The notes below the pieces were generated by a model. It was not told the origin of the DNA. It saw nothing but the letters and a program-made list of their open reading frames with translations, and made no database searches. A stretch of DNA of 64,000 nucleotides from Rhodovulum kholense (GTDB lineage Bacteria > Pseudomonadota > Alphaproteobacteria > Rhodobacterales > Rhodobacteraceae), in the NCBI RefSeq assembly GCF_003053725.1, contig NZ_QAYC01000009.1, forward strand, positions 62,001-126,000, in the 5' to 3' direction. Below, one piece after another: positions 41,805 to 64,000 of the stretch. A program made the position numbers and the translations under genes. Position 1 is the stretch's first letter, and every line of letters starts with the position of its first letter.

Positions 41805-41822
41805 ATTTCGGAGACCGCAGCC

Positions 41823-44107: not shown

Positions 44108-44341
44108 GCCGGACCGGGTCGCAACCGGATATGCCGCGTGGGGGGCGGATTCGGTAGTTTCTGCCGCGACGTCCGGATCTTTCGAATATTCCTCTCGCCC
44201 CCCGAACGGCACACTCGGGAAAGGCACAGGCGCTCCGGGACCGCGGAAGCCCTGAAATACAAGGGCGAAACGGCCCGGACCTTCCGGACGCGCCCTTGCA
44301 AAACGCCCCCGGTGCCCGGGTGCGACATACAGAAGAATGTT

Positions 44342-44359
44342 CCATGGCAGGTGCCATGG
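44342..44359. promoter_or_regulatory. Perfect palindrome upstream of the HAD/ABC operon
   Basis: CCATGGCA (44342-44349) and TGCCATGG (44352-44359) flank a GG centre, ending 22 bp before the HAD start codon. It is a good candidate operator, possibly for the Lrp/AsnC regulator at the end of the operon. The rest of the 274-bp gap shows no other clear signal. Confidence 0.45.
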
Positions 44360-44381
44360 CCGCGCGAAGGAAAGGCCGATC

Positions 44382-45122
44382 ATGGACGAGCAAACCGCCG
44401 AGACGCAGGCGCCGCCCCTCACCCGTTTCGATTATGTCAGCTTCGACGTGGTCGGCACGCTGATCGACTTCGAGGGCGCCATCAAGGCCGGGCTCGACAC
44501 CATTGCCAAGGCCGCCGGGATCGATCTGGACGGCGAGGCCGCACTGAGCGTCTACCGCGCCGCGCGCTACGAACCCGGCGCGCTGAAGTTTCCCGACGAC
44601 CTGGGCCGCTGCTACGGGCGCATCGCCGCCGAATTCGGCCTGCCCGACACCCCCGAAGCGCGCCAAAGCATGATCGACGCGGTGGGCGAGGCACAGCCCT
44701 TCCCCGACAGCACCGAGGCGCTGGCGAGGCTGGCAAGACGCTACAAGCTGATCGCGATGACCAATGCCCGCCGCTGGGCCTACGAGAAATACGCCGCCAA
44801 GCTGGGCGAACCGTTCTGGGCCGGGTTCACCACCGACGAGACCGGGACCGAAAAGCCCGATGCGGCCTTCTTCGAACAGGTCTTCGCCCATGTCGCGGCG
44901 ACCGGCGGCAGCAAGGACCGGATCCTGCACACCGCGCAAAGCCAGTATCACGACATCAGCATCTCGCGCGCGCTGGGCATGACCAATTGCTGGATCCAGC
45001 GACGGCATGCGCAGAAAGGCTATGGCGGGACCATCGAGCCCGCCGAATTCACCAGGCCCGACTACCACTTCCACAGCCTCGCGGACCTTGCCGACGCCGT
45101 CGACCGGGCCTTCGCGGACTGA
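44382..45122 (+). CDS. Haloacid dehalogenase-like hydrolase, type II (copy 2)
   Basis: A 246-residue paralogue of the gene at 38827. The nucleophile motif is SFDVVGTLIDF, motif II is IAMTNARRW, the Lys lies in TGTEKPDAAFFEQV, and the fourth motif is HTAQSQYHDISISRALG. As in copy 1, the SSNxxD of true L-2-haloacid dehalogenases is replaced. AAGGAAAGG precedes ATG 44382. It heads a run of genes continuing into the ABC importer, so it probably acts on the imported compound or a breakdown product. Confidence 0.85.
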   Translation: MDEQTAETQAPPLTRFDYVSFDVVGTLIDFEGAIKAGLDTIAKAAGIDLDGEAALSVYRAARYEPGALKFPDDLGRCYGRIAAEFGLPDTPEARQSMIDAVGEAQPFPDSTEALARLARRYKLIAMTNARRWAYEKYAAKLGEPFWAGFTTDETGTEKPDAAFFEQVFAHVAATGGSKDRILHTAQSQYHDISISRALGMTNCWIQRRHAQKGYGGTIEPAEFTRPDYHFHSLADLADAVDRAFAD

Positions 45123-45222
45123 TCCGCCCTCCGGGACAGGCAATCCCGGACACGGCACATCCGGGCCGCAAGCGCATGGCAAAGGCGTCCGGCCCCCCCT
45201 CCAACAGGGAGACGACAAGCCC

Positions 45223-46833: not shown

Positions 46834-46850
46834 GAGCCGCCCCTGAACGC

Positions 46851-46879
46851 GGGCGCGGGAGGCGATCCCTCCCGCGCCC
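46851..46879 (+). promoter_or_regulatory. Intercistronic stem-loop after the binding-protein gene
   Basis: A perfect 12-bp stem, GGGCGCGGGAGG (46851-46862) with CCTCCCGCGCCC (46868-46879), encloses loop CGATC. It lies 17 bp past the binding-protein stop and before the first permease gene. Without a T tract it is more likely a 3'-end stabiliser or attenuator than a full terminator. Confidence 0.6.
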
Positions 46880-46915
46880 CTCGTCGACGCCCCACGCAGG
46901 AGGAGAGCCACGTCC

Positions 46916-47875
46916 GTGCAGGCATCCCTGATCCCCTATATCCTCGTCGCCCGGCGGCTGGGCATCGCGCTGATCACCCTGATCATCGTGTCCTTCGCCG
47001 TCTTCTTCGCCACCGACCTTCTGCCCGGCGACGTGGCCGAGATCCTGATGGGGCAGGCCGCCACCCCCGAGGCGGTCGCGGGGCTGCGCGAGGCGATGGG
47101 GCTGAACCAGCCCGCCTTCCTGCGCTTCCTGGGCTGGCTCGGCGGGCTTTTCACCGGCGATCTGGGCACCTCCTATGTCAACCAGATGCCCGTGGCCGAC
47201 CTGATCGGCGGCCGGCTGGCGAATTCGCTGAAACTGGCAGGCGTCACCACGGCCGTCTCGGTGCCGCTGGCGCTGTTTCTCGGGATCACCGCGGCGATGT
47301 GGCGCGGCTCGGCCTATGACCGGATGGTGACCGCGCTGACCATCACCGTGATCTCGGTGCCCGAATTCATGGTCGCGACGCTGGCCGTTCTGATCTTCGC
47401 GGTCTGGCTGAAATGGCTGCCCGCGCTCAGCTTCGGGGCCGAGGTCGGCACCTTCTGGGCGCTGCTGAAAGCCTATACCATGCCGGTCATCACCCTGACC
47501 TTCGTGGTTTCGGCCCAGATGATCCGCATGACCCGCGCGGCCCTGATCGAGACCATCGACACCCCCTATGTCGAGATGGCGCGGCTGAAGGGGGCGGGCC
47601 GCATCCGCCAGGTGCTGCGCCACGCGCTGCCGAACGCGCTGGGGCCCATCGCCAATGCGATGGCGCTGTCGCTGTCCTACCTCGTCGGCGGGGTCATCAT
47701 CGTCGAGACGATCTTCAACTATCCGGGCGTCGCCAAGCTGATGGTCGACGCGGTCGCGACCCGCGACCTGCCGCTGATCCAGTCCTGCGCGATGATCTTC
47801 TGCGTCAGCTACCTGACGCTGATCACCCTGGCCGATCTGGTCGCGATCCTGTCCAATCCGAGGCTCCGCCGCTGA
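46916..47875 (+). CDS. ABC transporter permease, DppB type
   Basis: A 319-residue inner-membrane protein with six helices. The first is LGIALITLIIVSFAVFFATDLLPGDVAEILMG, as in DppB/OppB. The EAA-type cytoplasmic loop is YVEMARLKGAGRIRQVLRHALPNALGPI. The start is GTG 46916, supported by AGGAGGAGAG upstream. The stop overlaps the DppC-type gene by one base. Confidence 0.92.
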   Translation: MQASLIPYILVARRLGIALITLIIVSFAVFFATDLLPGDVAEILMGQAATPEAVAGLREAMGLNQPAFLRFLGWLGGLFTGDLGTSYVNQMPVADLIGGRLANSLKLAGVTTAVSVPLALFLGITAAMWRGSAYDRMVTALTITVISVPEFMVATLAVLIFAVWLKWLPALSFGAEVGTFWALLKAYTMPVITLTFVVSAQMIRMTRAALIETIDTPYVEMARLKGAGRIRQVLRHALPNALGPIANAMALSLSYLVGGVIIVETIFNYPGVAKLMVDAVATRDLPLIQSCAMIFCVSYLTLITLADLVAILSNPRLRR

Positions 47876-48720
47876 TGCCCAAACCGATGTTCCTGTCGCC
47901 CGCCCGCCATGGCTTCCGCTTCAACTGGGCCGGCCGGATCGGCCTGGCCATCGTGCTGCTCTGGGGGGCGGTGGCGCTGGTCGGGCCGCTGATCACCCCC
48001 TATCCGGTGGGCGAGATCGTCGACTGGGACTATTTCGGTCCGATGTCGCAGAAATTTCTGCTGGGCACCGATTATCTGGGCCGCGACATGCTTTCGCGCA
48101 TCCTGATGGGCGCGCGCTACACGGTGGGCATCTCGCTGGCCGCCGTCACCATCGCCTGTTCGGTGGGCGTGGTGCTGGGGATGATCGCCGCCGTGGTCGG
48201 CGGGATCTTCGACATGGGACTGTCGCGGCTGCTGGATGCGATCAACGGCATTCCGGGGCTTCTTTTCGGGCTGGTGGTGGTCGCCGCCGTCGGCTCGTCG
48301 CTGACCGTGCTGATCCTGACGCTGGCTACGATCTACATGCCCGGAGCCTACCGCTTTGCCCGGTCGCTTGCGGTGAACGTCAACACCATGGATTTCGTCA
48401 CCGTCGCCCGGGCGCGGGGCGAGCGGACCCCCTATCTGATCGCGCGCGAGATCTTTCCCAACATCCTCGGCCCGGTGCTGGCCGATCTGGGCGTGCGCTT
48501 CGTCTTCATCGTGCTGGTGCTGTCGGGCCTGTCGTTCCTCGGGCTCGGGGTGCAGCCGCCCAATGCCGACTGGGGCGCGCTGGTGCGCGAGAATATCGGC
48601 GCGCTCAGCTTCGGGGCGCCTGCGGTGGTGTTCCCGTCGCTGGCCATCGCCTCGCTGACGATCTCGATGAACCTCTTCATCGACAACCTGCCCACCCGTA
48701 TCCGCGACAGGAGCGCCTGA
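47875..48720 (+). CDS. ABC transporter permease, DppC type
   Basis: A 281-residue inner-membrane partner of the DppB-type subunit. Features are the N-terminal cytosolic and first membrane segment IGLAIVLLWGAVALVGPLI, the FLLGTDYLGRDMLSRILMGARY motif of DppC/OppC proteins, and the EAA loop DFVTVARARGERTPYLIAREIFPNILGPV. It overlaps both neighbours by one base, so the importer genes are translationally coupled. Confidence 0.92.
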   Translation: MPKPMFLSPARHGFRFNWAGRIGLAIVLLWGAVALVGPLITPYPVGEIVDWDYFGPMSQKFLLGTDYLGRDMLSRILMGARYTVGISLAAVTIACSVGVVLGMIAAVVGGIFDMGLSRLLDAINGIPGLLFGLVVVAAVGSSLTVLILTLATIYMPGAYRFARSLAVNVNTMDFVTVARARGERTPYLIAREIFPNILGPVLADLGVRFVFIVLVLSGLSFLGLGVQPPNADWGALVRENIGALSFGAPAVVFPSLAIASLTISMNLFIDNLPTRIRDRSA

Positions 48721-50390
48721 TGCCCGACGCCAGCCAGCCTCTTGTCACCGTCCGCGACCTGCATATCGGCGCGGTCACCGATTCCGGCCGCCAGGTCGAG
48801 ATCATCAAGGGCGTGTCCTTCGACATCCGGCCCGGCGAATTCGTCGCGCTGATCGGCGAATCCGGGTCGGGCAAGACCACCATCGCGCTGTCGCTGATGG
48901 GCTATTGCCGCCCCGGCTGTTCGATCGCGGGCGGCACCGTCACGCTGGACGGCCGCGACGTCACCGCGATGTCCGAGGCCGACCGCGCCGAGCTGCGCGG
49001 CACCGAGGTGTCCTACGTGCCGCAATCGGCCGCCGCCGCCTTCAATCCCTCGAAGCGGATCATGGATCAGGTGGTCGAGATCACCGGCATCCACCGCCTG
49101 ATGCCGCGCGCCGAGGCCGAGGCCAAGGCGGTCTCGCTGTTCCGCGCGCTTGCCCTGCCCCAGCCCGAGACCATCGGGCGGCGCTATCCGCACCAGGTCT
49201 CGGGCGGCCAGCTACAGCGGCTGGCCGCGGCCATGGCGCTGATCGGCGGCCCGAAACTGGTGATCTTCGACGAACCGACCACGGCGCTTGACGTCACCAC
49301 CCAGATCGAGGTGCTGCGCGCCTTCAAGGCGGTGGTGCAGAAAGGCGGCGTCTCGGGCGTCTATGTCAGCCATGACCTGGCCGTGGTCGCCCAGATCGCC
49401 GACCGGATCATCGTGCTGAAAGGCGGCGAGATCCAGGAAGAGAACACCACGCCGAAGATCCTGACCGAGGCCCGCCACCCCTATACCCGGGCGCTGCTGG
49501 CGGCGGTCGATCCGGTGCCGCACCAGCCGCGCAGCATTGCCGGCCTGCAGCCCCGCCCGCCGATCCTCGAAGCAATCGACCTGCATGCGGGCTATGGCAC
49601 CTTCCAGAACGGCGAACCCGCCGTGAAGGTTCTGAAGAACATCAATTTCCGGCTGGAACGGGGCCGCAACCTTGGGGTCATCGGCGAATCCGGGTCCGGG
49701 AAATCGACCCTCGCCCGCGCCGTTTCGGGGATCCTGCCGCCCTATCGCGGCGCGGTTCTGCTGGACGGGCACGAGCTTGACGGCGATCTGAAAGAGCGCC
49801 GCAAGGAAGACCTCAGGCGCATGCAGATCGTGTTTCAGCTGGCCGATACCGCGCTCAATCCGGCCCAGACCGTGGGCAGCATCCTCGCGCGTCCGCTGAA
49901 ATTCTACCACGGGCTCCGCGGCGCGGCCCGCGACGCCCGGGTCGATGCACTGCTGGACATGGTGCACCTGCCCGCCGCGCTGAAATACCGGCTGCCGCGC
50001 GAGCTGTCGGGCGGGCAGAAACAGCGGGTGAACCTCGCCCGGGCGCTGGCCGCCGAGCCCGAGCTGATCCTTTGCGACGAAATCACCTCGGCGCTCGACA
50101 CCGTGGTGGCCGCCGCGATCCTGAAGCTGCTGGAAGAGCTGCAATCCGAACTGAACCTCAGCTACATGTTCATTTCGCACGACCTCTCGACGGTCGAAGC
50201 GATCTGCGACGACGTGCTGGTCATGTACAAGGGCGAGGTGGTCGAGGAACTGCCCGCGGCACGGATGTCGGCCGAGGCCGCGCATCCCTATTCGAAACTG
50301 CTGATCTCCTCGGTGCCGCAGATCGATCCGGGCTGGCTCGACAGTCTCGACCAAGACCCCGAATTGCTGGCCGCCTTCTCGCGCCGCTAG
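48720..50390 (+). CDS. Fused double ABC ATPase (DppD-DppF type)
   Basis: A 556-residue protein with two complete ABC ATPase domains. Domain 1 has Walker A GESGSGKTT near residue 46, signature VSGGQLQRLA and Walker B LVIFDEPTTALD. Domain 2 has Walker A GESGSGKST near residue 325, signature LSGGQKQRVN and Walker B LILCDEITSALD. Between them is the oligopeptide-type linker TEARHPYTRALLAAVDPVP. In dipeptide systems these are usually two genes; here the heterodimer is covalent. The second Walker B has Ile-Thr after DE, conservative. The 3' end overlaps the convergent regulator gene by 4 bp. Confidence 0.92.
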   Translation: MPDASQPLVTVRDLHIGAVTDSGRQVEIIKGVSFDIRPGEFVALIGESGSGKTTIALSLMGYCRPGCSIAGGTVTLDGRDVTAMSEADRAELRGTEVSYVPQSAAAAFNPSKRIMDQVVEITGIHRLMPRAEAEAKAVSLFRALALPQPETIGRRYPHQVSGGQLQRLAAAMALIGGPKLVIFDEPTTALDVTTQIEVLRAFKAVVQKGGVSGVYVSHDLAVVAQIADRIIVLKGGEIQEENTTPKILTEARHPYTRALLAAVDPVPHQPRSIAGLQPRPPILEAIDLHAGYGTFQNGEPAVKVLKNINFRLERGRNLGVIGESGSGKSTLARAVSGILPPYRGAVLLDGHELDGDLKERRKEDLRRMQIVFQLADTALNPAQTVGSILARPLKFYHGLRGAARDARVDALLDMVHLPAALKYRLPRELSGGQKQRVNLARALAAEPELILCDEITSALDTVVAAAILKLLEELQSELNLSYMFISHDLSTVEAICDDVLVMYKGEVVEELPAARMSAEAAHPYSKLLISSVPQIDPGWLDSLDQDPELLAAFSRR

Positions 50391-50887
50391 GTGTCGAGCT
50401 TGCCCGCGAACAGGCTGGTCAGCGGGATCTGCGACTTGATGAAGGGCGACTTGATCACGACGAAGCTGAAATACTTGTCGATGCCGATGTCGCGGTCGAT
50501 CAGGCTTTCCATGATGGTCTGATAGTCGACGATGCCGGCGGTCACGAATTTCAGCAGATAGTCGTAGCCGCCCGACACCAGATGGCATTCGATGCAGGAT
50601 TCGATCTTGGCCACGGTCTGCTGGAACCGCGAAAAGTCGATATGGCGGTGGTTCTTCAGCGTGACCTCGGTGAAGACGGTCAGGGTCTCGCCCAGCTTCG
50701 CCAGATCGATCTGCGCGCTGTAGCCGGTGATATAGCCCGCCGCCTGCAGCTTCTTGACCCGCATCAGGCAGGGCGAGGGCGACAGGTTCACCAGCTCGGC
50801 CAGCTCGACATTGGTGATCCGCCCGTTCTTCTGCAACTCGGACAGGATCTTGATGTCGATGCGGTCAAGTTTCTGGCGGCTGTCCAT
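50387..50887 (-). CDS. Lrp/AsnC-family transcriptional regulator
   Basis: A 166-residue regulator. The N-terminal helix-turn-helix spans RIDIKILSELQKNGRITNVELAELVNLSPSPCLMRVKKL (residues about 9-47). The C-terminal RAM ligand domain carries VSGGYDYLLKFVTAGIVDYQ. Such proteins sense amino acids and form octamers on DNA. Its place next to the ABC importer and divergent from a DAO oxidase suggests that it controls both. ATG 50887 was preferred over 50914. Confidence 0.9.
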   Translation of the reverse strand: MDSRQKLDRIDIKILSELQKNGRITNVELAELVNLSPSPCLMRVKKLQAAGYITGYSAQIDLAKLGETLTVFTEVTLKNHRHIDFSRFQQTVAKIESCIECHLVSGGYDYLLKFVTAGIVDYQTIMESLIDRDIGIDKYFSFVVIKSPFIKSQIPLTSLFAGKLDT

Positions 50888-50999
50888 GGGTCGTCCTCGG
50901 CGGCAAGGCGTCATCGGGGGGCGCCAGAGGCCCCGGCGGGCGGTCTGCGGCCGTCTGACGCAACGTCCGAGAAACGCCTTCTCACGCTGTTCGGCAAGG

Positions 51000-51018
51000 G
51001 CAATTCCGCAGGAAATGC
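51000..51018. promoter_or_regulatory. Candidate Lrp/AsnC operator in the divergent regulator/oxidase region
   Basis: GCAATTCC (51000-51007) and GGAAATGC (51011-51018) form a 7-of-8 inverted repeat around GCA, with a TTTAA following. It lies between the Lrp/AsnC gene and the divergent oxidase gene, in an otherwise GC-rich 209-bp gap. Assignment to this regulator is inference. Confidence 0.35.
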
Positions 51019-51096
51019 TGTTTAAGGCGCGGATTCTGGCAGGTACGGGCGCGTCGGCTGGCCTAACGTCGGCCCCGAACAGACCGGAGTCCCCTC

Positions 51097-52422
51097 ATGC
51101 CCGCGCCCCTTCACCGGATCGAAACCCCAGATATCCTGCCCGAATCCGCCGATTGCGTCGTCATCGGCGCAGGCATCGTGGGCGTGTCGGCCGCCTATTG
51201 GCTGGCCGCGGCCGGACAGAAGGTCGTGCTGCTGGAAAAGGGGCTGGTCGGCGCCGAACAGTCCTCGCGCAACTGGGGCTGGTGCCGCCAGCAGAACCGC
51301 GACGCGCGCGAACTGCCGCTGGCCACCCGAAGCCTCGAGCTGTGGGACCGCCTGACCGCCGAAACCGGCACCGATCTCGGCTTCCGCCGCTCGGGGCTTC
51401 TCTATCTCTCGAACGACCCCGCCGAGATCGAGGGCTGGGCGAATTGGGGCCGCTTTGCCCGGGGCGCGGGCGTCGATACCCGGATGCTGAGTGCCGCCGA
51501 GGCCGCCGAACGCGGCGCCGCGACCGGGCAGGCCTGGGCGGGCGGGGTCTGGTCGCCGACCGACGGCATCGCCGATCCGGCGCGCGCCGCGCCCTTGATC
51601 GCGACCGGCGTGACGAAGCTGGGGGGCACCGTCCTGCAGAACTGCGCCGCCCGCGGGATCGAGCGTGAGGCGGGCGCCGTCAGCGGCGTCATCACCGAAA
51701 AGGGCGTGATCCGCACCCGCCAGGTGGTGCTTGCGGGCGGCGCCTGGGCCGCGAGCTTTCTGCACCAGCTGGGGCTGCGGTTCCCGCAAGCCTCGGTCCG
51801 CAGCTCGATCCTGTCGCTCGCGCCCGGCGGCGGCGATCTTCCGGCGGCGCTTCATACCGCCGCCGTTTCCGTCACCCGGCGCGGCGATGGCGGGCATACG
51901 CTGGCAATCTCGGGCAAGGCCAGTCTCGACCCGACGCCCGGCGCCCTGATGGGCGCGCGGCACTTCCTGCCGATGTTCGCCAAGCGCTGGCAGGCGCTGG
52001 CCCCGGGCGGGTTCCAGGCCTGGGCCGCGGGCTTTGAGACCCGGCGCCGCTGGGCGATGGACGCCCCCACCCCGATGGAGCGGGTCCGCATCCTTGATCC
52101 GCGCCCGGCGCCGAAGCTGATCGCCGAGACGCTGACCCGCGCCCGCCGCCTGCTGCCCGCGCTGAAGACGCTGCCGGTGCAGGCCGAATGGGCGGGGTAC
52201 ATCGACAGCACGCCCGACGGGGTGCCGGTCATCGACGGCGAGATCGGCGTGCCGGGCCTGCTGCTGGCGGCGGGGTTCTCCGGGCACGGCTTCGGCATCG
52301 GCCCCGGTGCAGGCCATCTGGTGGCCGACATCCTGCTGGGCCGCCCGCCGATCACCGAAATCGCGCAATACCGGCTGGCGCGTTATGGCGGGGCGCAATG
52401 GGGCAAGGTCTCGGAGTTCTGA
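51097..52422 (+). CDS. DAO-family FAD oxidoreductase (amino acid/amine oxidase)
   Basis: A 441-residue flavoprotein. The FAD motif is CVVIGAGIVGVSAAYWLAAAG followed by the Glu in LLEKGLVGAEQSSRNWGWCRQQNRD. The C terminus has the STPDGVPVIDGE and FSGHGFGIGPGAGHLVADILLG closing motif. This matches D-amino-acid dehydrogenase/sarcosine-oxidase-like enzymes. It is divergent from the Lrp/AsnC gene and immediately followed, convergently, by a degraded relative (52428-53519). It may be the surviving functional copy. Confidence 0.88.
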   Translation: MPAPLHRIETPDILPESADCVVIGAGIVGVSAAYWLAAAGQKVVLLEKGLVGAEQSSRNWGWCRQQNRDARELPLATRSLELWDRLTAETGTDLGFRRSGLLYLSNDPAEIEGWANWGRFARGAGVDTRMLSAAEAAERGAATGQAWAGGVWSPTDGIADPARAAPLIATGVTKLGGTVLQNCAARGIEREAGAVSGVITEKGVIRTRQVVLAGGAWAASFLHQLGLRFPQASVRSSILSLAPGGGDLPAALHTAAVSVTRRGDGGHTLAISGKASLDPTPGALMGARHFLPMFAKRWQALAPGGFQAWAAGFETRRRWAMDAPTPMERVRILDPRPAPKLIAETLTRARRLLPALKTLPVQAEWAGYIDSTPDGVPVIDGEIGVPGLLLAAGFSGHGFGIGPGAGHLVADILLGRPPITEIAQYRLARYGGAQWGKVSEF

Positions 52423-52427
52423 GCCGG

Positions 52428-53519
52428 TCATCGGGCGAAGCGTCCGATCCCGAACTCGGCCAGCGGGGTCGTGCAGGCCCCCGGTCGCGATCAGCTCGGC
52501 CATCGCGTCGCCGACCCCGGGGCAATGCTGAAGGCATGCAACAGCCCCGGCGTTGTGCCCGACGCCCCCATCACCGGCAGCCCGTCGGCGACATAGCCCT
52601 CGCAGCCCGACCAGGTGCGGATGATCGCGGCATCCCTCAGCGCAGGCAAAAGTCGCACGAGCGCCCGCACCTGCCCCGGCAGCCGCGCCGGATCGGCTTG
52701 GGCATGACCGGGGTCAAGCGCCACCGGCACCCGTTCGGCCGCGCCGCCGAAGACGATGTTGCCGCGCTAGACCTGCCGCAGATAGCCGTTCCGGCCCGCG
52801 TCCCGGGTCCAGAGCCCGACCACCGGCAGCACCCGGTGCGGCAGCGGCTCGGTCACGCCCATCTGCGTGCCGAACGCTTCCAGCGGCACCGGCTCGCCGA
52901 ACCTCGCCGCGATCCCGGCGTCCCAGGCCCCGGCCGCGTTCAGCAGGATCCCGGCGCCAAAGGTGCCTTGCGCGGTCGCAACCTCGAAGCCCGAACCGGT
53001 CTGGCGGATATCAACCCGCCCAGCCTCATCGACGATCCGCACGCCCAGTGCGCGGGCGGCGGCGGCGAAGGCGGGCGCGATCAGGCGCGGATTGGCCGAC
53101 CCGTCCTCGGGCGAGAACGAGGCCGCAATCGCCTCGGGCCCGAACCCCGGAAAGCGCGCGCGGATCTCTGTCGGCGCCAGCTCCTGAAGGTCGAGCCCCC
53201 AGGGCAGGGCGGCCTCGGCAAAGGCGCGCATTTCCGACAGGCCGTCGGCGTCGAAGATCAGCCGCAGATGCCCGGTCGTGCGGAATTCGACATCGCGGCC
53301 CCGAAGCGCCTCGGCCTCGCCCCAAAGCGCGCGGGACCGATGGGCCAGCGGCAGTTGCGGCAGGTGGCGCCCGGTCCGGCGGATATTGCCGAAGGCGGCG
53401 ATGGTGGCGCCGGTGCCGATCCGGCCGCGCTCGATCAGCGTCACCTGAACCCCGCGCCGGGCCAGGAAAAAGGCCGAGGCCCTTCCCATCAGCCCGCCGC
53501 CCGGAACCGGTGTATCCAT
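52428..53519 (-). pseudogene. Degraded DAO-family oxidase
   Basis: The minus-strand frame from ATG 53519 reads as a DAO flavoprotein (GGGLMGRASAFFLARRG; EFRTTGHLRLIFDADGL; NAAGAWDAGIA). It meets an amber codon at 52767-52769 after NGYLRQV, where relatives continue directly into ARGNIVFGG. The frame continues past the stop (RGNIVFGGAAER...GCEGYVADGLPVMG). A base missing from a G run near 52517 then shifts the frame before the conserved APGVGDAMAELIATGG, and another shift precedes the natural end TPLAEFGIGRFAR. About seven residues around the closing HGF motif also appear deleted. It is clearly inactive. Confidence 0.85.
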
Positions 53520-53622
53520 GCTGCCGCCACCTGACTTTGTCCGCTGCAAGCTTGGCGGCGTGGGGTCTTTGCGTCAAAGACCGGATCGGGATAACCTCAT
53601 AAGCCAGACCTATGGAAAGCCG

Positions 53623-54511
53623 ATGCGCGCACGCCAGATGGAGGTCTTTACCGCCATCATGCGGGCGGGCACCGTCACCGCCGCCGCGCGGATGCTGAAC
53701 ATCTCGCAGCCGGCGCTGCGCCAGATCCTTCTGCATACCGAGGACGAACTGGGCTTTCCGCTGTTCGACCGGATCAGGGGCCGCCTGCATCCGACGCCCG
53801 AGGCCATCGGGATCTTCCCCGAGGCCGAACGGATCTTCGCCTATCTCGAAGGGCTGCGCCAGAAGACCGCCGATCTGCGGCATGGCCGGGCCGGGCTGGT
53901 GCGGATCGCGGCCTCGACCCCGCCCGCAATGGCCGTGCTGCCCGGCGCGCTGGCCGCCTTCCGGGCGCGCCATCCCGAAATCCTGCTGCGGTCTCACATC
54001 GCGCCGCTGGCCTCGATGATCCGGATTCTGCGCGAGGGCGATGCCGGGCTGGCGCTGGCGCTTGACGACCGTCTTGCCCCCGATATCGCGGCCGAGGTCC
54101 TGAGCGGTGTCGGCTTCGCCTGCCTTCTGCCCGCAGGGCATCCGCTGGCCGCGCAGGAAAGCCTGAGCCTTGCCGATCTGGCAGAAGCACCGCTGATCTT
54201 CTATCGCGGCGACACCCGCCCCGGCGAAGAGCTGGCCCGCGTCGAGGGCGTGACCCTGACCCCCCAGCCTTGAAATCGACGGCTCGATCTCGGCCGTGGG
54301 CTTCGTGCAGGCGGGATTGGGGCTTGCCCTCGTAGATGCACTGCTGCCCTGGGCGCAGTTCGCGGGTATCGCGGTCCGGCCGCTGGCGGCCAGCCCGACC
54401 GTGCCGCTGGCCCTGCTTTCGGTCCGCAACCGCCCGCTGTCGCAGGCCGAAACCCGGCTGCGCGACCACCTGCGCCAGACCTGCCGTGCCCTGCCCGCGC
54501 TTTCCGCATAA
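53623..54511 (+). pseudogene. LysR-family regulator with one frameshift
   Basis: The frame from ATG 53623 (MRARQMEVFTAIMRAG) gives a normal LysR HTH (TVTAAARMLNISQPALRQIL) and most of the ligand-binding domain. Near 54260-54270, one base too many (a run of six C) produces a premature TGA at 54271-54273. In the +1 frame the protein continues naturally (LEIDGSISAVGFVQAGLGLALVDALLPWAQ) to 54511. Apart from this lesion the gene is intact, so the mutation is recent or an error. It is divergent from the DAO pseudogene and precedes hyuA, so it probably regulated that operon. Confidence 0.85.
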
Positions 54512-54597
54512 GTCCAACTTATGCCGCCGGTCAGGATGCGTCTTGGACCGCGCCCCGGCCTCCGTGCCAGCCTGCGGCCCGACACAGCAAGGGACAG

Positions 54598-56669
54598 ATG
54601 GCCATGGATGCAAGCGCCGCTTTGCCAGCCGACTGGAAGGTCGGCGTCGATATCGGCGGCACCTTCATCGACTTCTGCGCGCTCGAGACGCGCTCGGACC
54701 GGGTGGCCTCGCTGAAGGTGCTGACCACGCCCGACGAGCCGGGGCCGTGCTGATCACCGGCCTTTCCCTGCTGGCCCGAGCGCGAGGGGCTGGCGCCCGC
54801 CGACATCACCCGCTTCGTCCATGGCACCACGGTCGGGATCAACACGGTGATCCAGCGCAAGGGCGCGCGGCTCGCGCTTGTGACCAATGCGGGTTTCGAG
54901 GACGTGATCGAGCTGGCGCGCCTGAGGATGCCCGCCATGTATTCGCTGTTCTGCGCGCGTCCCGATCAGCTGATCGCCCGCGACATGGTCTTCGGCATCC
55001 CCGCGCGGCTGCGGGCCGATGGCCGGGAAACCCTGGCACCGGACATGGCTGCGGTGGCCGGGGCCGTCGCCACGGCCCGCGCCCGGGGGGCCGTGGGGAT
55101 CACGTGCCCTTCCTGCATGCCTGGCGCGACGGCGCGCAGGAGGCCGCGATCAAGGCCGAAATCCAACGCCTTGCACCGGATCTGTTCGTCTTCGCCTCGT
55201 CCGAGGTCTGGCCGGTGATCCGCCAATACGAACGCACGACAGCCGCGATCCTGAACGGGTACGTGCATCCGCGCGTCGCGGGCTATCTCGGCGCGCTCGA
55301 GGACCGGGTGGCCACGCAGGGCGTGCCCACCCGGCCCTTACTGACCAAGTCGAATGGCGGGGTGATGAATGCCGCCGAGGGCAAGACCGCCTGCGTGAAC
55401 ATGCTGCTGTCGGGCACCGCCTCGGAGGTGACCGGAGCCGCCTGGCTGGCCCGGCAGGCGGGCGAGGACAAGGTGCTGACGCTCGATATCGGCGGCACCT
55501 CGGCCGATTTCGCGCTGATCGTCGATGGCACCGCGCAATTCGGCACGGGCGAGCTGGTGGGCGAGTTTCCGTTGCACATCCCTTCGGTCTCGGTCAACTC
55601 GATCGGGATCGGCGGCGGGTCCATCGCCTGGATCGACGATCACGGCGTGTTTCGGGTGGGGCCTGACTCGGCCGGGTCAAGCCCCGGCCCCGCCTGCTAT
55701 GGGCGCAGCGGCACCAAGGCGACGGTGACCGATGCGATGGCCGATTGCGGCTGGCTCGGACATGCGGAAATGGCCTATGGGCAGCTCGACATGGACCCCG
55801 CGTTGGCCCGCGCGGCGGTGGGCGAACTGACCGCGATCCTCGAGCGGCCGCTGGCCGAAACGGCGCAGGCGATCCTCGATATCGCGGTTTCCGAGATGTT
55901 CGTCGAGGTCGAGAAACTGGCCCCGCGCGCGGGCGTCGATCTGCGGGAATTCACCCTGATGCCCTTCGGCGGCGGCCCGATGTTGGGCGCGTTCCTGGCG
56001 CAGGAGATGGGCATCTCGCATGTGATGGCGCCGCGCCGTCCCGGCGTCGTCTCGGCGCTTGGCGGACTGGTGGCCGATCTCAGGGGCGATTTCATCCGCA
56101 GGGTCTTTGCCCTGCCCTCGCCCGAGGTCCTGCCGGGGCTGCGGACCTCGCTGGCCGACCTGATCGCCGAGGGCCGCCAATGGCTGACCCATCAGGGCCA
56201 TGACGGCGCCGTCGATCTGATCCTGTCGGCCGACATGCGCTATCACGGGCAAATCTATGAAATCGAGGTGACGCTGGACCCCGCCTGGATCGAGGCGGGC
56301 GATCTGGGCGCCATCGCGGCGGCCTTCAACGCGACCCATGCCCGGATCTACGATTTCGACGATCCGGCGGGCACGGTCGAGATGGTCAACCTGCGCCTGA
56401 CCGCCATCGGCGCGGGCCCCGCGTTGCAACTTCCCGAGGCAGAAGAGGCAAAGACCGCCGCGACCGCGCTGAAATCCGTCCGGGTCCATACGGGCGGCGC
56501 CGAACAGGATGTGAACCTCTATTCCCGTGACGATCTGACCCCGGGCACAAGGTTCGAAGGCCCCGCCGTCGTCGTCCAGGAAGACACCACCGTCGCGATC
56601 CCGCCCGGGGCGCTGGCCCTTGTGGAGCGGCACCTGAACCTTCATCTGCAGATCGAGGAGCGCGCCTGA
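54598..56669 (+). pseudogene. Hydantoinase/oxoprolinase subunit A with three frameshifts
   Basis: HyuA-type proteins are ATP-dependent amidohydrolase subunits for hydantoins or 5-oxoproline. ATG 54598 starts MAMDASAALPADW and the nucleotide-binding GVDIGGTFIDF, but a G missing near 54744 yields a TGA at 54751. The frame shifts again near 54776-54790 (before EGLAPADITRFVHGTT) and once more near 55101 (before VPFLHAWRDGAQEA). From there it is open to 56669, with the HyuA hallmarks LDIGGTSADFAL, SVNSIGIGGGSIAW and FGGGPMLGAFLA. The stop overlaps hyuB (TGATG), so the original operon structure is preserved. Confidence 0.88.
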
Positions 56670-58604
56670 TGTTTGATCGCATGACCCTTCAGGTTCTCGC
56701 GAAACATGCCCGCGCCGCGGCCGAGAACATGGCCCATACGCTGCACCGCACCGCCCATTCCGCCTTCGTCAAGGAGACGCAGGATTTCACGGTGATGCTG
56801 ATGGACCGCGCGGGCCAGACCTTCGCCGTGCCGATGGATCTGGGCGCCACCTGGTGTCCGGGGCTGACCTGTGGCCGCGCAATCGACATGGTGGATGACT
56901 ACCGCCCGGGCGATGTGGCCTTCACCAACGCCCCCTATTCGGGCCATGTCGCGACCCACGCCCCCGACACCCATCTATGGAAGCCGAGCTTGGCGGACGG
57001 CGAGATCGTCGCCTGGTCTGGCGGGTATATCCACAATACCGACATGGGCGGCGCCGTGCCCGCCTCGCTGTCGCGCGGGCTGACCGAGATCCATCAGGAG
57101 GGCATTTGCGTTCCGCCGATGAAGCTGGTGAACGAGGTGGGGCTTCGACGCGCAGATCCTGCGGATCATGACGACGAACGTGCGCAAGCCCGATCTGAAC
57201 ATCGGCGACATCAAGGCGCTGCTCGGCGCGCTGAACACGGGCGAACGCAAGGCCCATGCGATGATCGCCAAGTTCGGCAAGGCGACGTTTCTGGACGGGG
57301 TGGAGGAGCTGCTCGACCGTGCCGAGGCCCAGGCCCGTGCCGTGCTGGCGGCGATGCCCGACGGGACATGGGAGTTCGCCGATTATGCCGCCGAGGATTC
57401 CGAAAAGGCCAATCCCTGCCGGCTGAAGCTGCGCCTCACGATCCGGGGCGACGAGGCCATCCTCGATTTCACCGGGTCCGATCCGCAGATGGCCAGTTCG
57501 CTTAACGTGCCCTCGGGCGGCGATCCGCGCCACACGGTGCTTTTGGTGGGCGTCTATTACGTCCTTTACGCCCTGAACCCGCAGATCCTGCTGAATACGG
57601 GGCTCACGCGCCCCTTCACCTGCATCGCGCCCGAGGGCACGGTGCTGAACCCGGTGGCGCCCGCCGCGGTCGGCATGCGCTCGCTGACCTGCGCGCGGCT
57701 GCGCTCGGTGATCTTCGGCGCCTTCTCGCAGGCCGTGCCCGACCGCCTGCCCGCAGCACCAGCCGGTAACAACTGCATCGTCAACGTGATGACCACCGAC
57801 GAGCGGACCCGGTGCACCATCATCGCTGCGGTGAACCCGGTCGTGGGCGGTGGCGGCGGCATGCCCCATCGCGACGGCACCAACGGGTCGGACGCCGATG
57901 CGGCCTACCTAAAGAACACGCGCATCGAGATCACCGAAACCGAAACGCCCGTCGAGTTCGTGAAATACGGGCTTGCGCGGGATTCCGGAGGCCCCGGGCG
58001 TTGCCGCGGCGGGCTTGCGACCGATATGGCGTTCCGCGTCTTCGCCCCCGATACCCGCATCACCGCGCGCAACCGCGACCGGTCCTTCTTTCGCCCCTAG
58101 GGCGTACTGGAGGGCCGGGCGGCGGGGTTGTCCGATATGGTCGTCAATCCCGGCACACCGAATGAGCGGCGTCTGGGCAATGTCGATACCGCCGTGCTGC
58201 AACCGGGCGACGTGCTCGAGATCCGCTCGGCCGGGTGCGGCGGGCGCGGCGATCCGATGGCGCGCGAGCCCTGGCGGGTGGCTTGGGACGAGGCGCGGGG
58301 CTATGTCTCGGCCGGGGCCGCCGGTCGCGACTATGGCGTGGTGCTGCCCGAGGGCAGGGTCGACGAGGCCGCGACGGCGGCGCTCCGCGCCCGGGCCACG
58401 CCCGCGGCCTATGACGCGCTTAGTGCGATCCTGTCGGCGCTGCCGATCCACTGGCGGTTCTTCGCCAAGACCGAAATCTTTGCGCGGATGGACGGGCGCA
58501 CCGGCGCCGAAGGCGTCGCGGCCGCGTTTGAGGCGGTCTGCGCCCGTTTCCCCGACCTGCCCCGCTCCGCCAGGGCCACAGAGGCCATTGAGGCCGCCGA
58601 ATGA
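56669..58604 (+). pseudogene. Hydantoinase/oxoprolinase subunit B with frameshift and amber codon
   Basis: The frame from ATG 56669 (MFDRMTLQVLAKHARAAAENM) has the HyuB motifs HSAFVKETQDFTVMLMD and FTNAPYSGHVATHAPD. An extra base in the G run 57138-57142 shifts it. The protein continues in another frame (FDAQILRIMTTNVRKPDLNIGD) until an amber at 58098-58100 after RDRSFFRP, at a position normally Trp (TGG to TAG). The same frame then continues to 58604. About 645 residues would be encoded by the repaired gene, normal for HyuB. It overlaps the next gene by ATGA. Confidence 0.88.
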
Positions 58605-58896
58605 CCGGTCAGTTCGTCCGGCTGGCGGGAAAGGGCCGCCCGCCCGTCCGCTTCATGCTGGATGGCCGCGCCTGTCAGGCCCTGGCGGGCGACACGGTGC
58701 TGACGGCGGTGCTGACATCGGCCCGGAGCCTGCGCGCGGGCGATGCAGGCCCCGAACGGCGCGCCGGTTCTGCCTGATGGGCGCCTGTCAGGACTGCTGG
58801 GTCTGGCAGCGAGACGGGCCGCGGCTCCGCGCCGGTTCGACGCCCGTCGCGCCGGGCATGCGGCTTCTGTCGCAGCCGCCGGAAAGCTGGCCATGA
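58601..58896 (+). pseudogene. [2Fe-2S] small subunit with frameshift
   Basis: A short ferredoxin-like subunit of the SoxA/OoxA/HcnA type that accompanies FAD oxidoreductases. The start MTGQFVRLAGKGRPPVRF and the repeat RACQALAGDTVLTAVL are followed by a frameshift around 58740-58765. After it come RFCLMGACQDCWVWQRDG, with the C-x(4)-C-x2-C cluster, and the natural end. It overlaps the neighbours by ATGA on both sides, as in intact operons of this kind. Confidence 0.8.
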
Positions 58897-59369
58897 CCCG
58901 GGTCGTCATCGTCGGCGCGGGCCCCGCGGGCATCCGCGCGACCGAAACCCTGGCCCATGCCGGGCTTTGCCCGATGGTGATCGACGAGGGCACGCGCGCG
59001 GGGGGCCAGATCTACCGCCCCCCCCCGCAGGCTTCGCCCGCCCTCCTGCCACGCTTTATGGCAGTGAGGCCGCCAAGGCGGTCGCGCTGCATGACTGTTT
59101 CGACGGGCTTGTGGCCCGGGGCCGGATCGACCATTGTCCCGAAAGCTCGGTCGTGGCGATCCGCGACGGGGTGCTGCATGTCCTTGGCCCTGAGGGGCTT
59201 TTGCCCTGCCTCTTCGACCGGCTGATCCTTGCATCCGGCGCCACAGACCGGCTGGCCCCGGTGCCCGGCTGGCAGGCGCCGGGGGTGTTTTAGCTTGGCG
59301 CCGCGCAGATCGCGCTCAAGTCGCAGGGCGTGGCGCTGGGACGGGGGATCGTGCTGGCCGGAAGCGGCC

Positions 59370-61021
59370 GAGGCTGTGTGGAGACGGGCCGGCAGGGGTT
59401 TTCGGATGCTGATTTGCCCGGATGCTCGCTTTAGCCGTCTCAGACATCCCCTGGCGCGCGCGGCGGCCCGCGATCCCTTTCGGGCAAAGCGCAACGTCTG
59501 CGCTTGGGGCGCCGCACCCCCTGATCAGGCCGGAATGGCCCGCATCAGGCCCCGGATGCCGATCAACGCGACCACCCGCTTGATGTTGTAGGCAAGCACA
59601 TTCAGCGCCATCTCGCTGCGGACGTTCTTCAGCCTCCGGGTCAGGAAATGGGTGTGCCCCATCCGGGCCTTGAGCGTGCCGAACGGGTGTTCCACGGTGC
59701 AGCGGCGCGGGGACATCGGATCCGCGTGTCCAGCCAGCCTTTCGCGCATCGCATCGACCAGGTGTTCATGGTCCCACCGGGTGATCCGACGTTCCTTGCT
59801 GGTGGTGCAGCGGTGACGAACCGGACAATCCTAACATTCATTGGTCCAGTGACGGCCGACCCGCAGGCCGTCCTCCTCGCGCGAGTAACGATAGGTCAGC
59901 TCTTCTCCCGCCGGGCAGACATAGACATCGCGGGCCGGATCGTAAGCGAAGTCGGCCTTCACATGCATGCCCTTGCCCAGGTTGCCCGATGTCTCGGGGC
60001 GCGGCACGGTCGCGGTGATCCCCGCCTGAGGACAGGCCAGGATCTGAGACCCGCTGAAATATCCCTTGTCGGCAATGGCGTGCAGTCGTCGCGCTGAAGC
60101 GCTTTCCTGGCTGCCGCCGCCATCGGGCTCAGCTGGTCGCGATCGAAGCCCTGATTGGTCACGTCATGCGTCACGACCAGATGCGTCTCGGTATCGACCG
60201 CGGTCTGGACGTTGTAGCCGACCATGCCGCCGTGCCGGGCGCTGGTCGCCATGGCCCGGGCATCGGGATTGGTCAGGGAGATCTGCCCGTCGGGCGCATC
60301 GGCCAGGGCCCGGTCCATTGCCTTCAGCCGCGTAATTTCCTGCCGGATACGGCCATAACGGCGGGCGAGATGAGCGATCTTGTCAGCCCGTGCCTCGCCG
60401 TCCTCCTGGCGGTCGATGCGGACCATCTCCGTAATATAGCGCTCAACGTCGGTCTCGAGATGCGCCAGGCGGCTGGCAATCTTGTTCTTCGTGAAGTTGC
60501 GATCGCGGTTGTTCACGGCCTTGAACTTGCTGCCGTCGATGGCCACGCAAGCGCCCTTCAGCACCCCGATCCGCCGGCACAGCTCCACGAACCGCGCGCA
60601 GGTCCTGCGGATCGCCGATCCGTTGTCTCGCCGGAAATCGGCGATGGTCTTGTGGTCTGGCGCCAGGCGACCGGTCAGCCACATCAGCTCGACATTGCGA
60701 CCCGCTTCGCGTTCCAGGCGACGGCTGGACGGGATCCGGTTCAGGTCGCCGTAAATGAAGAGCTTCAGCAGCACAGCCGGATGGTAGCCTGGGCGACCGG
60801 TTCGGGCGGGCACACAACGCTCGAAGCCGAGCGCCGGAAGATCAAGCTCCTCGACGAAGAGGTCGACGACACGGCCCAGGTGATCCTCGCCGATCCGGTC
60901 CTCGAGGCGATCAGGGAAAAGCGTGACCTGGTCCCGGTCGGTGCCATCGATGAAGCCCGCCATCCCTGCCTCCCGCTACCTTGCGGAAGCTTAACACGGA
61001 ACAGCGTTTCCACACAGCCTC
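59370..61021 (-). mobile_element. IS1182-like insertion sequence, 1652 bp
   Basis: The ends are imperfect inverted repeats beginning GAGGCTGTGTGGAGACG (left) and GAGGCTGTGTGGAAACG (right end, complemented). The element is flanked by a direct 4-bp target duplication GGCC (59366-59369 and 61022-61025). Deleting the element and one GGCC restores the reading frame of the host gene. It contains one transposase gene on the minus strand. Confidence 0.92.
59525..60963 (-). pseudogene. IS1182-like transposase, disrupted
   Basis: The frame from ATG 60963 (MAGFIDGTDRDQVTLFPD) has the DDE transposase layout of IS1182-like proteins: GRPGYHPAVLLKLFIYGD, VAIDGSKFKAVNN, GGMVGYNVQTAVD. A single-base loss near 60088 shifts the frame before DLHAIADKGYFSG. 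In that second frame an amber near 59833 interrupts HWTNEC-DCPVRHRC. The C-terminal VEHPFGTLKARMGHTHFL and the natural end at 59525 follow. The copy is probably not self-mobile. Confidence 0.88.
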
Positions 61022-62034
61022 GGCCCGCTGCTCACGCTGGTCGCGGCACAGCTGCAGGCGGCCGGAGCCGGGGTCGCCGCCGTTCTAGACACCGCACCGC
61101 TTGGGGCGCAGGCCCGGGCGCTGCCCCGGCTGGCCGCCCGACCCGTCGTCACGCTGCGGGGGCTGGCGATGCGGGCGCGGCTCGGGCGGCTTTGCCGCGC
61201 GGGCGTCACGCTCGGGCGGATCGAGGCAGATGCCGAGGGGCCGACAGCGCTTTGCTGGCCCAACGCGCGCGGACAGGCGCGGCCCCCCTGCGATACCGTC
61301 GCGCTTGGCTGGCACCTGCGGTCCGAAACCCATCTGGCCGAACTGGCGGGCGCGCGCCTTTTCCACGATCCGCTCTGGGCGCAATGGCGGCCCGAGGCCG
61401 ACCCGATGGGCCGGGCGGGTGCCGGGCTTTATCTCGCGGGCGACGGGCTTTGCCTTCTGGGCGCCGACGCGGCCGAGATCGCGGGGCGGCTGGCCGCCAT
61501 CGCCTGCCTTCAGGATCTGGGCCTGCCCCACCCCGCGTCCGATCTGCGCCGCCTCAAACGCCCGCGCCGCTTTGCGGCCGGTCTGGCGCAGGCCTTTCCC
61601 GACCCCGCCGCCAGGGTCGCGGCACCGCCCGACAGATCCGTCATCTGCCGCTGCGAGGGCATCACCGCGGGCGCGCTGCGCGAAAGCGCGGCCCATGGCG
61701 GGGCGGAGGCGAACCGGGTCAAGTCGCTGTCGCGCGCCGGTATGGGCCGCTGTCAGGGCCGCTATTGCCAGATCGCGGCGACCGAAATCCTGGCCGCCGC
61801 CACCGGGATCGCGCCAAGGATGCGGCCGACCGAGGCGGGACGGATGCGGGCCCAGGCCCCGGCGCGGCCGCTGCCGGTCTCGGCCTGCCTGGCCCGCCCG
61901 GACCCCGGCCGGTCGCAGACGATCCTGCCATCCAGGCGGCGCTGACAGCGGAATATGCTGCGCGCCCCGGCGCTTCGGCAGGAAGATACGGGGGCCATCG
62001 GCTAGGCTCGGCCCAAGATCACAGCGGAGGAGCC

Positions 62035-63498
62035 ATGTCGCTCAGTTTCGACCCGGCACGCCTGTCCCTGCCGGAGGGTCATTTCATCGGCGGGCGCTAT
62101 CTGCCCGGCCCCGACGCCATCGAGATCCGCGCGCCCTCGGACGGCCGCATCCTTGGCGCTATCCCGCAAGCCGATGCCGGGACCGTCGACCGCGCGGTCG
62201 AGGCCGCCCGCACGGCACTTGCCCGGTCGGGCTGGGCCGATCTGGCCCCCCGCGACCGGGTTCGCGCGCTGCAGGCCTGGGCCGATCTGATCGAGGCCGA
62301 GGCCGAGGACCTGGCCCGGATCGAGGCCGTGGCCTCGTCCCGCCCGATTGCCGAGGCGGTGCCGGGCGATGTCGCGATCCTGGCCGAACAGATCCGCTTT
62401 TTCGCAGAATTCGCCGACAAGGAGGGCGGCAGCCTGGTGCCGACCGGCGCCGGGCGGATGGGGATGATCGCGTCCGAACCCTATGGCGTCGTCGGCGCCA
62501 TCACGCCCTGGAACTTCCCGCTGTCGATGGCGGGCTGGAAGCTTGGCCCGGCACTGGCCGCGGGCAATGCGGTGGTGCTGAAACCCTCCGAGATGACCCC
62601 CTGGTCGACGCTGCGCCTGGCCGAGCTGTCGGTGCGCGCGGGCCTGCCCGAGGGGCTGATCAACATCGTGCTCGGCGACGGGCCGAACGCCGGCGCGGCG
62701 CTGGTCGCCCATCCCGGCATCGCCAAGGTCTCGTTCACCGGCTCGACCCGGGCGGGCGCAGCGATCATGGAAAACATCGCGCGCAGCGGCATCAAGCCGA
62801 TGACGCTGGAACTGGGCGGCAAGTCGCCGCAACTGGTCTTCGCCGATGCCGATCTGGACCTCGCCGCCGACTGCATCCTGCGCGGCATCACCGCCAATGC
62901 CGGTCAGGTCTGCGTCGCTGGATCGCGCCTGATCGCCGAAGCCTCGGTGGCCGAAGAGCTGGCCGCGAAAATCGCCGCGAAGATGGCCGGGATCGCCCCC
63001 GGCCCGACCTGGGAGGCGGCCACCGGCTATTCGCCGATCATCTCGGAGGCCCAGCTGTCGCGCATCGACGGCATCGTGCAGGCCGCCCGGGCCGAGGGCG
63101 CCGGGGTGCTGTGCGGCGGCGAACGCCTCGACCGGTCCGGCAGCTTCTATGCGCCCACGATCCTGACCGGGCCTGGCGCGGACTCGCCCGCCATCACCGA
63201 AGAGATCTTCGGCCCGGTCCTGACGGTCGAAACCTTCCAGACCGAGGACGAGGCGCTGGCCCTGGCTCGCCATCCGACCTATGGCCTCTGCTCGGGGATC
63301 TACACCCGCGATCTGTCGCGCGCGCTGCGGATGACCCGCGCGATCGAGGCGGGCACGGTCTGGGTCAACCGCTATGGCCGCTCGCGCGACCACATCCTGC
63401 CCACCGGAGGCTGGAAATCCTCGGGCCTTGGCAAGGATCTGGGCCGCGAGGCCTATCTGGCCAACCGACGCCAGAAATCCGTTCTGATCGACCTTTGA
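62035..63498 (+). CDS. NAD(P)-dependent aldehyde dehydrogenase
   Basis: A 487-residue intact aldehyde dehydrogenase. Motifs are TPWNFPLSMAGWKLGPALAAGN, the nucleotide loop SFTGSTRAG, general-base Glu in LELGGKSPQLVF, nucleophile Cys in NAGQVCVAGSR, and EEIFGPVL near the C terminus. GGAGGAG precedes ATG 62035. It lies 89 bp after the broken FAD gene, in the same direction, and probably belonged to that operon; it remains intact. The substrate is unknown; semialdehydes or betaine-aldehyde-like compounds are typical of the group. Confidence 0.9.
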   Translation: MSLSFDPARLSLPEGHFIGGRYLPGPDAIEIRAPSDGRILGAIPQADAGTVDRAVEAARTALARSGWADLAPRDRVRALQAWADLIEAEAEDLARIEAVASSRPIAEAVPGDVAILAEQIRFFAEFADKEGGSLVPTGAGRMGMIASEPYGVVGAITPWNFPLSMAGWKLGPALAAGNAVVLKPSEMTPWSTLRLAELSVRAGLPEGLINIVLGDGPNAGAALVAHPGIAKVSFTGSTRAGAAIMENIARSGIKPMTLELGGKSPQLVFADADLDLAADCILRGITANAGQVCVAGSRLIAEASVAEELAAKIAAKMAGIAPGPTWEAATGYSPIISEAQLSRIDGIVQAARAEGAGVLCGGERLDRSGSFYAPTILTGPGADSPAITEEIFGPVLTVETFQTEDEALALARHPTYGLCSGIYTRDLSRALRMTRAIEAGTVWVNRYGRSRDHILPTGGWKSSGLGKDLGREAYLANRRQKSVLIDL

Positions 63499-63520
63499 GC
63501 CGCCTTTTCAGGAGACGACC

Positions 63521-64000
63521 ATGACCAACCACAAGATCGCCCTGATCCCGGGCGACGGCATCGGCGTCGACGTGACCGATGCCGCGATGGAGATCGCCAC
63601 CGCCGCCGCCCGGCGCTTCGGCTTCACGCTGGCGACCGAGACCTTCCCCTGGTCCTGCGACCATTACCTGGCCACGGGGCGGATGATGCCCGAGGACGGG
63701 ATCGAGACGTTGCGCGGCTTCGAAGCCATCTATCTGGGCGCGGTCGGCTGGCCCGCCACGGTGCCGGATTCCGTGTCGCTGCACGGGCTTTTGCTGCCGA
63801 TCCGCAAGGCCTTCGCGCAATATGCCAATATCCGGCCGCACCGGCTGCTGAAAGGCGTCGAAGGCCCGCTGAGGTCGGAAGGCTTCGACATTCTCTGCAT
63901 CCGCGAGAATACCGAGGGCGAATACTCCGGCGCGGGCGGGCGCGTGCATCAGGGCACGCCGGGCGAGGTCGCGATCCAGACCTCGGTCTTTACCCGGATG
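63521..64000 (+). CDS. Tartrate/D-malate dehydrogenase, N-terminal part (runs off the right edge)
   Basis: The first 160 residues of an isocitrate/isopropylmalate dehydrogenase family member of the tartrate dehydrogenase (TtuC)/D-malate dehydrogenase (DmlA) branch. Visible are KIALIPGDGIGVDVTDAA, YLGAVGWPATVPDSVSLHGLLLPIRKAF, ANIRPHRLL and the substrate/metal loop CIRENTEGEYSGAGGR. GGAGACGACC precedes ATG 63521, 22 bp after the aldehyde dehydrogenase. It would oxidise D-malate, tartrate or a related 2-hydroxy acid. Confidence 0.88.
   Translation, partial: MTNHKIALIPGDGIGVDVTDAAMEIATAAARRFGFTLATETFPWSCDHYLATGRMMPEDGIETLRGFEAIYLGAVGWPATVPDSVSLHGLLLPIRKAFAQYANIRPHRLLKGVEGPLRSEGFDILCIRENTEGEYSGAGGRVHQGTPGEVAIQTSVFTRM

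Follow-up and report, generated by a model that had tools for sequence, protein, structure and literature searches.

How does a catabolic gene cluster come to be broken in every one of its central genes with the genes on either side still open, and what might it have done for its host? The question is raised by a block of six genes (positions 52428-61945) in 64,000 nucleotides of Rhodovulum kholense DNA (contig NZ_QAYC01000009.1, positions 62,001 to 126,000, or G000:C9:62001-126000, from an assembly of 4.46 Mb in 51 contigs); this whole stretch is called the window here. The block comprises a DAO-family gene (DAO2), a LysR-type regulator, the genes hyuA and hyuB for two subunits of a hydantoinase-type enzyme, and genes for a [2Fe-2S] protein and a flavin adenine dinucleotide (FAD) protein. 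Taken jointly, the recent decay of a conserved catabolic module and the classes of the enzymes it encoded are very probably as set out below; the full sequence of reactions, considered alone, is evenly balanced between right and wrong. The loss affects the central module of a larger catabolic island, itself conserved, whose transport and downstream dehydrogenase genes survive.

Six broken genes and an intact sister copy

A DNA search across 100 relatives matched the hyuAB stretch in one genome of the same genus, G005, at 91% over 4 kb, with more distant matches in G041, G054 and G019; among the 16 genomes of the genus, the cluster occurs at high identity only in G005 and in R. kholense (G000). 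From 46003 to 64000 the window is colinear with the G005 locus at ~93% identity, the sole interruption being an insertion in the window, and the genes of the G005 locus are all open. This locus (L023, on G005:C18) served as the intact reference, against which the window was globally aligned base by base to call lesions, given here in window coordinates.

The DAO2 pseudogene (52428-53519, minus strand; intact copy L023:6630-7772), encoding a putative FAD-binding beta subunit, has gained one base at 52478, lost 22 bases at 52523 and acquired an amber codon at 52769-52767. On the plus strand, as are all the genes that follow, the LysR-type regulator (53623-54511; intact copy ending at L023:8742) carries an in-frame deletion of nine bases at 54241 and an extra base at 54260. 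Next to it hyuA, for the ATP-binding subunit (54598-56669; intact copy ending at L023:10904), has lost a base at 54740, gained one at 54775, lost another at 55101 and undergone a 3-base in-frame deletion at 55966; the first loss and the gain do not rescue each other, as translation meets a TGA, ending at 54753, before it reaches the second. The metal-binding hydrolase subunit gene hyuB (56669-58604; intact copy L023:10904-12892) shows an inserted base at 57138, an amber codon at 58098-58100 and a 60-base in-frame deletion at 58397. Finally, the putative gamma subunit, a [2Fe-2S] protein of the Fer2_4 family (58601-58896; intact copy L023:12889-13185), has lost a base at 58767 and its fourth cluster cysteine (C79G), and the gene for the putative FAD-binding alpha subunit (58893-61945; intact copy L023:13182-14564) combines a lost base at 59019 and an amber codon at 59291-59293 with an insertion sequence (IS) that splits it at 59366-61025.

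An initial annotation of the window had counted at least eight frameshifts, three amber codons and one IS, with at least one inactivating lesion in each of the six genes. Alignment to the intact copy bears this out with nine frame-shifting indels, three sense codons changed to TAG and one IS, and all six genes are truncated: the translated frames stop after 250 (DAO2), 216 (LysR), 51 (HyuA), 278 (HyuB), 58 ([2Fe-2S]) and 110 (FAD) residues, compared with intact lengths in G005 of ~380, 300, 690, 662, 98 and 460. It was also right that the operon spacing is kept, in the overlaps TGATG (56668) and ATGA (58601), and that the genes on both sides are intact, those for a second DAO-family protein (DAO1), an AsnC-type regulator and an ATP-binding cassette (ABC) importer being open upstream and those for an aldehyde dehydrogenase (ALDH), TtuC and GabD downstream. 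The decay of a HyuAB-type catabolic operon therefore stands, but the same open genes belong to the conserved cluster, so that it was not a "complete" system that decayed and the loss is limited to the central module.

A conserved cluster and its likely chemistry

For wider comparison, 80 loci were collected from Alphaproteobacteria by HyuB similarity; with this mode of retrieval, and with Mesorhizobium dominating the set, they do not amount to 80 independent lineages. The run HyuA-HyuB-[2Fe-2S]-FAD is present in all 80, accompanied by DAO2 in 79, LysR in 74, AsnC and the ABC ATPase in 69 each and DAO1 in 68. Bearers, many of them inhabitants of soil or sea, include Mesorhizobium, Bosea, Azospirillum, Paracoccus and Salipiger, among other genera, and in Alloyangia and Azospirillum there are plasmid-borne copies. 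Within the Rhodobacterales (Paracoccus, Salipiger, Donghicola, Roseovarius and others) the order is permeases-ATPase-AsnC-DAO1-DAO2-LysR-HyuAB-[2Fe-2S]-FAD-ALDH-TtuC-GabD, GabD being unrecovered in one. A chance combination of genes is ruled out by conservation in 80 of 80 loci, bearing in mind how these were retrieved. The search for intact syntenic copies that the initial annotation had proposed thus succeeded both within the genus and well beyond it, and its view of the combination as one that could not be matched to a named pathway gives way to a cluster conserved across many genera, with a named parallel in outline (below). As decay, the event in R. kholense is ordinary lineage-specific gene loss, and the intact cluster is the more interesting part.

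A TMADH/OYE-like NADH:flavin oxidoreductase gene also recurs near the cluster (L031:16754-18841, L042, L051, L073, L079, L090 and PDEN_RS24625), often adjoining a GcvA-like LysR gene, and might point to a substrate that is N-methylated or an amine.

What the intact genes would encode was read from the G005 copies. HyuA and HyuB match, at full length, Hydantoinase_A with its N- and C-terminal domains and Hydantoinase_B (PF05378, PF01968, PF19278, PF02538), and their closest solved relatives are the N-methylhydantoinase 7hk5 and the caprolactamase 6yra. For the caprolactamase CapAB, ATP phosphate and adenosine motifs and metal ligands at 41/99/102/124 have been described (PMC8453981). HyuA has the DxGGT motif twice (DIGGT at 15 and 294) and the adenosine motif GxxPGP (GSSPGP at 357), and HyuB has an Asp-His-Asp-His metal site (D39/H97/D100/H122) spaced exactly as D41/H99/D102/H124 of CapB. 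Because the ATP motifs and metal site of CapAB are present with the same spacing, HyuAB is, as judged from these motifs, an enzyme of the ATP-dependent hydantoinase/lactamase kind, and by equivalog cut-offs not a caprolactamase proper. It shares with these enzymes its A and B domains, ATP motifs and metal-ligand spacing; it differs in that 7hk5 is a single chain of 1288 residues and HyuAB consists of separate subunits, and in that hyuA and hyuB are both broken in the window.

The other four products carry the Pfam domains DAO (DAO2), HTH_1 and LysR_substrate (LysR), Fer2_4 (the small protein), and Pyr_redox_2, Fer2_BFD and SO_alpha_A3 (the FAD protein). Three-subunit D-hydroxyproline and opine dehydrogenases are characterised by a gamma motif C-X4-C-X2-C-X11-12-C, an R-X-W in beta and C-X-C-X15-20-C-X4-C in alpha (PMC4575208). 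The small protein of G005 has C-X4-C-X2-C-X12-C from position 58, a motif found in 79 of the 80 loci, and DAO2, among whose best matches are sarcosine oxidase beta-like folds, has RTW at 311 (R-X-W, for flavin mononucleotide) and GGGLMG at 17 (GxGxxG, for FAD), R-X-W-X-G being present in 79 of 79 homologues. In the FAD protein, C-X-C and C-X4-C lie 32 residues apart as against 15-20 in the published enzymes, and Fer2_BFD is matched. The small [2Fe-2S] protein, the FAD protein and DAO2 most plausibly form a single flavin dehydrogenase, with three subunits, of the D-hydroxyproline/opine kind. We infer that DAO2 belongs with the other two from the R-X-W motif, from co-occurrence in 79 of 80 loci and from their joint decay. 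The initial annotation had instead set a DAO oxidase apart from an opine-oxidase-like FAD/[2Fe-2S] pair. The likeness to D-hydroxyproline dehydrogenase and flavin opine dehydrogenase extends to the DAO-type beta subunit and the overlapping gamma and alpha genes; in those systems, however, the beta gene stands in tandem, whereas here it is divergent beside LysR and the whole is coupled to HyuAB, and all three genes are broken in the window.

DAO1, an alternative candidate for the beta subunit, is less likely, with R-X-W-X-G in only 42 of 68 homologues and no decay alongside the other two subunits.

Together these classes would make up the following route. A cyclic amide (a lactam or hydantoin), or a precursor of one, would be imported by the ABC importer; HyuA would phosphorylate it at the expense of ATP, and HyuB, as a metal hydrolase, would open the ring to yield an amino acid. 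The three-subunit flavin dehydrogenase (DAO2 as beta, the [2Fe-2S] protein as gamma and the FAD protein as alpha) could then convert this amino acid to an imine and on to a semialdehyde, for oxidation by ALDH and/or GabD, a succinate-semialdehyde dehydrogenase (SSADH), and further by a tartrate-dehydrogenase-type enzyme into central metabolism, LysR presumably regulating the module. Both the order of these steps and the chemical class of the substrate are deductions from gene content. In this lineage the module would have ceased to be of selective value, with lesions of several kinds (point changes, slippage, deletions and the IS) building up across all six genes as those for transport and the end of the pathway stayed open. 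No published match to the cluster or its substrate was found in the literature searched, and neighbour and NCBIfam analyses named no substrate; there is an even chance that the intact cluster is an undescribed natural lactam or hydantoin pathway, widespread in Alphaproteobacteria, whose central step is being lost here and whose uptake and end steps persist.

Several points weigh against this route. We found no enzyme activity recorded for this exact cluster, and HyuA (414 bits) and HyuB (242 bits) score far under the NCBIfam equivalog cut-off of 1000 for CapA and CapB. In addition, plasmid 1 of Paracoccus denitrificans PD1222 holds an intact island (PDEN_RS24750-24625) that resembles the present one in its HyuAB, LysR, ALDH, tartrate dehydrogenase, SSADH, aminotransferase, GhrA-like, HAD, ABC importer, AsnC and DAO1 genes, but its HyuAB is distant (52-53% identical) and DAO2, [2Fe-2S] and FAD genes are absent; the flavin dehydrogenase is therefore not obligatory and the module is separable. 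The amine step could instead be carried out by the aminotransferase or by DAO1.

On the same plasmid (L138), two adjacent DAO1-like genes occupy the place of DAO1 and DAO2, suggesting an exchange of subunit or enzyme.

The nearest named parallel is the nmp cluster, which shares in outline the first and last enzyme classes. In Alicycliphilus BQ1 a cluster nmpABCDEF is reportedly responsible for degradation of N-methylpyrrolidone. In Paracoccus sp. ZQW-1, deletion of nmpB abolishes this degradation, and nmpAB, nmpC and nmpF are an N-methylhydantoin amidohydrolase, an amino acid oxidase and an SSADH, respectively (PMC12866759). On one alternative model the intact pathway would serve N-methylpyrrolidone or a related lactam, HyuAB opening the lactam to 4-(methylamino)butyrate, the flavin enzyme yielding succinate semialdehyde and SSADH finally succinate. 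By published gene classes nmpABCF consists of the same kinds of enzyme (HyuAB-type amidohydrolase, amino acid oxidase, SSADH; PMC12866759), GabD exceeds the SSADH cut-off, and in some loci a TMADH/OYE-like flavoprotein gene recurs near the cluster. Such an assignment is nevertheless unlikely: the oxidase here looks three-subunit, whereas for nmpC one amino acid oxidase has been described and no [2Fe-2S] or FAD subunits are named among the published nmp gene classes; the island has many further genes, and its aminotransferase, tartrate dehydrogenase, ArgE-like and GhrA-like genes are not required by the nmp route; and N-methylpyrrolidone, being mainly industrial, is an improbable substrate for so widespread a cluster. 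Breakdown of N-methylhydantoin, of the creatinine type, in which the flavin dehydrogenase would act on sarcosine, would suit the best structural match of HyuAB (N-methylhydantoinase) and the sarcosine oxidase beta-like folds matched by DAO2. It is distinctly unlikely, since N-carbamoylsarcosine amidase is not annotated in the conserved neighbourhoods and both SSADH and the tartrate dehydrogenase would be superfluous.

Relaxed constraint in the broken genes

The broken genes differ from their intact counterparts in more than their reading frames, as a comparison of the kind proposed in the initial annotation (Ka/Ks) shows. Nonsynonymous divergence from G005 (dN) is 0.040-0.056 in DAO2, LysR, HyuA, HyuB and FAD, the short [2Fe-2S] gene being left out, and 0.009-0.023 in five intact neighbours, so that the broken genes stand at 2-6 times the level of the intact ones. 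At sites at least 95% conserved across up to 80 homologous loci, the broken genes depart from the conserved residue 80 times in the window and 30 times in G005 (2.7-fold), compared with 27 and 28 departures in six neighbouring genes; the difference between block and neighbours (Fisher p = 0.003) is indicative only, because sites of the same gene do not vary independently. The block dS of ~0.2, the neighbours' dN/dS of ~0.1 and the excess dN together suggest, as a rough estimate, that constraint has been relaxed for about the most recent quarter of the period over which the window and G005 have diverged. Synonymous divergence (dS) is itself 0.19-0.22 in the block and 0.08-0.17 in the neighbours, as if synonymous sites of the intact genes were under some constraint.

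These figures bear directly on whether the operon is functional and its lesions are errors of sequencing or assembly. Several of the one-base indels do lie within homopolymer runs (52478, 54260, 54740 and 59019, one of the runs being nine C), and each of these, viewed in isolation, might be an error. Error as the principal explanation is rejected as highly improbable, however, because excess dN and the 2.7-fold excess of conserved-site departures are restricted to the same genes; the lesions also include deletions of 22 and 60 bases, three ambers of substitution type and an IS with terminal repeats. Outside the block, moreover, no indels relative to G005 were found in the global alignment between 46003 and 52384, the frame-changing differences that could be placed in the next 17 kb upstream are intergenic (a single-base event at 31857 being left unassigned to a gene), and, in the stretches compared with G005, the frame-shifting indels near the start of GabD cancel within a few bases. 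Programmed or tolerated frameshifting, by which the broken genes would still yield product in pieces, can be dismissed despite the paired -1/+1 events 35 bases apart in HyuA, as the TGA between them lies in the translated frame, terminating lesions occur in all six genes and conserved residues are lost, including an iron-sulphur ligand.

As to redundancy, only distant HyuB relatives (26% and 32%) remain in the same genome. That one genus holds both an intact and a decaying copy of this locus, flanked by genes that serve as internal controls, makes a clean natural experiment: the pair of strains predicts a difference in growth that would help to identify the substrate of the cluster, and draws attention to a well-conserved alphaproteobacterial cluster for which no assigned substrate was found in the literature.

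Surviving neighbours and the insertion sequence

Upstream of the block, the intact and conserved neighbours are DAO1, an FAD oxidoreductase of 441 residues (51097-52422, plus strand), the Lrp/AsnC-type regulator (50387-50914, minus strand) and the oligopeptide-type ABC importer, with a binding protein, two permeases and a fused ATPase (45226-50390, plus strand). The stretch 37536-50390 holds a DAO-family gene, an ArgE-like deacylase, a GNAT protein, a class III aminotransferase, a GhrA-like reductase, a HAD hydrolase and the importer, an arrangement that likewise precedes the cluster in G005 and G054. Downstream, the intact ALDH (62035-63498, plus strand, 487 residues) is followed by open genes for a tartrate dehydrogenase (TtuC) and the SSADH GabD, which extend beyond the end of the window; identity to G005 is 96%, 98% and 94%, respectively, and the G005 copies of TtuC and GabD exceed the curated NCBIfam cut-offs for tartrate dehydrogenase and SSADH. 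No RNA feature in the window reached its gathering score.

The IS within the FAD subunit gene (59366-61025, minus strand, 1.66 kb) is bounded by 21-base terminal inverted repeats (59366-59386 and 61005-61025), with no clear target duplication seen at its ends, and encodes a transposase that looks IS1182-like. It is itself a pseudogene, its transposase having lost one base near 60085 and stopping at 334 residues; with the frame broken, either the element was dead on arrival, having been moved by another copy, or its decay followed the insertion. Elsewhere in the genome there are two full or near-full copies, at G000:C26:30782-32443 and C16:74440-75942 (90% and 79%), and a 106-base fragment (C11:138894-138999); in the 90% copy the transposase frame is open, at ~488 residues.

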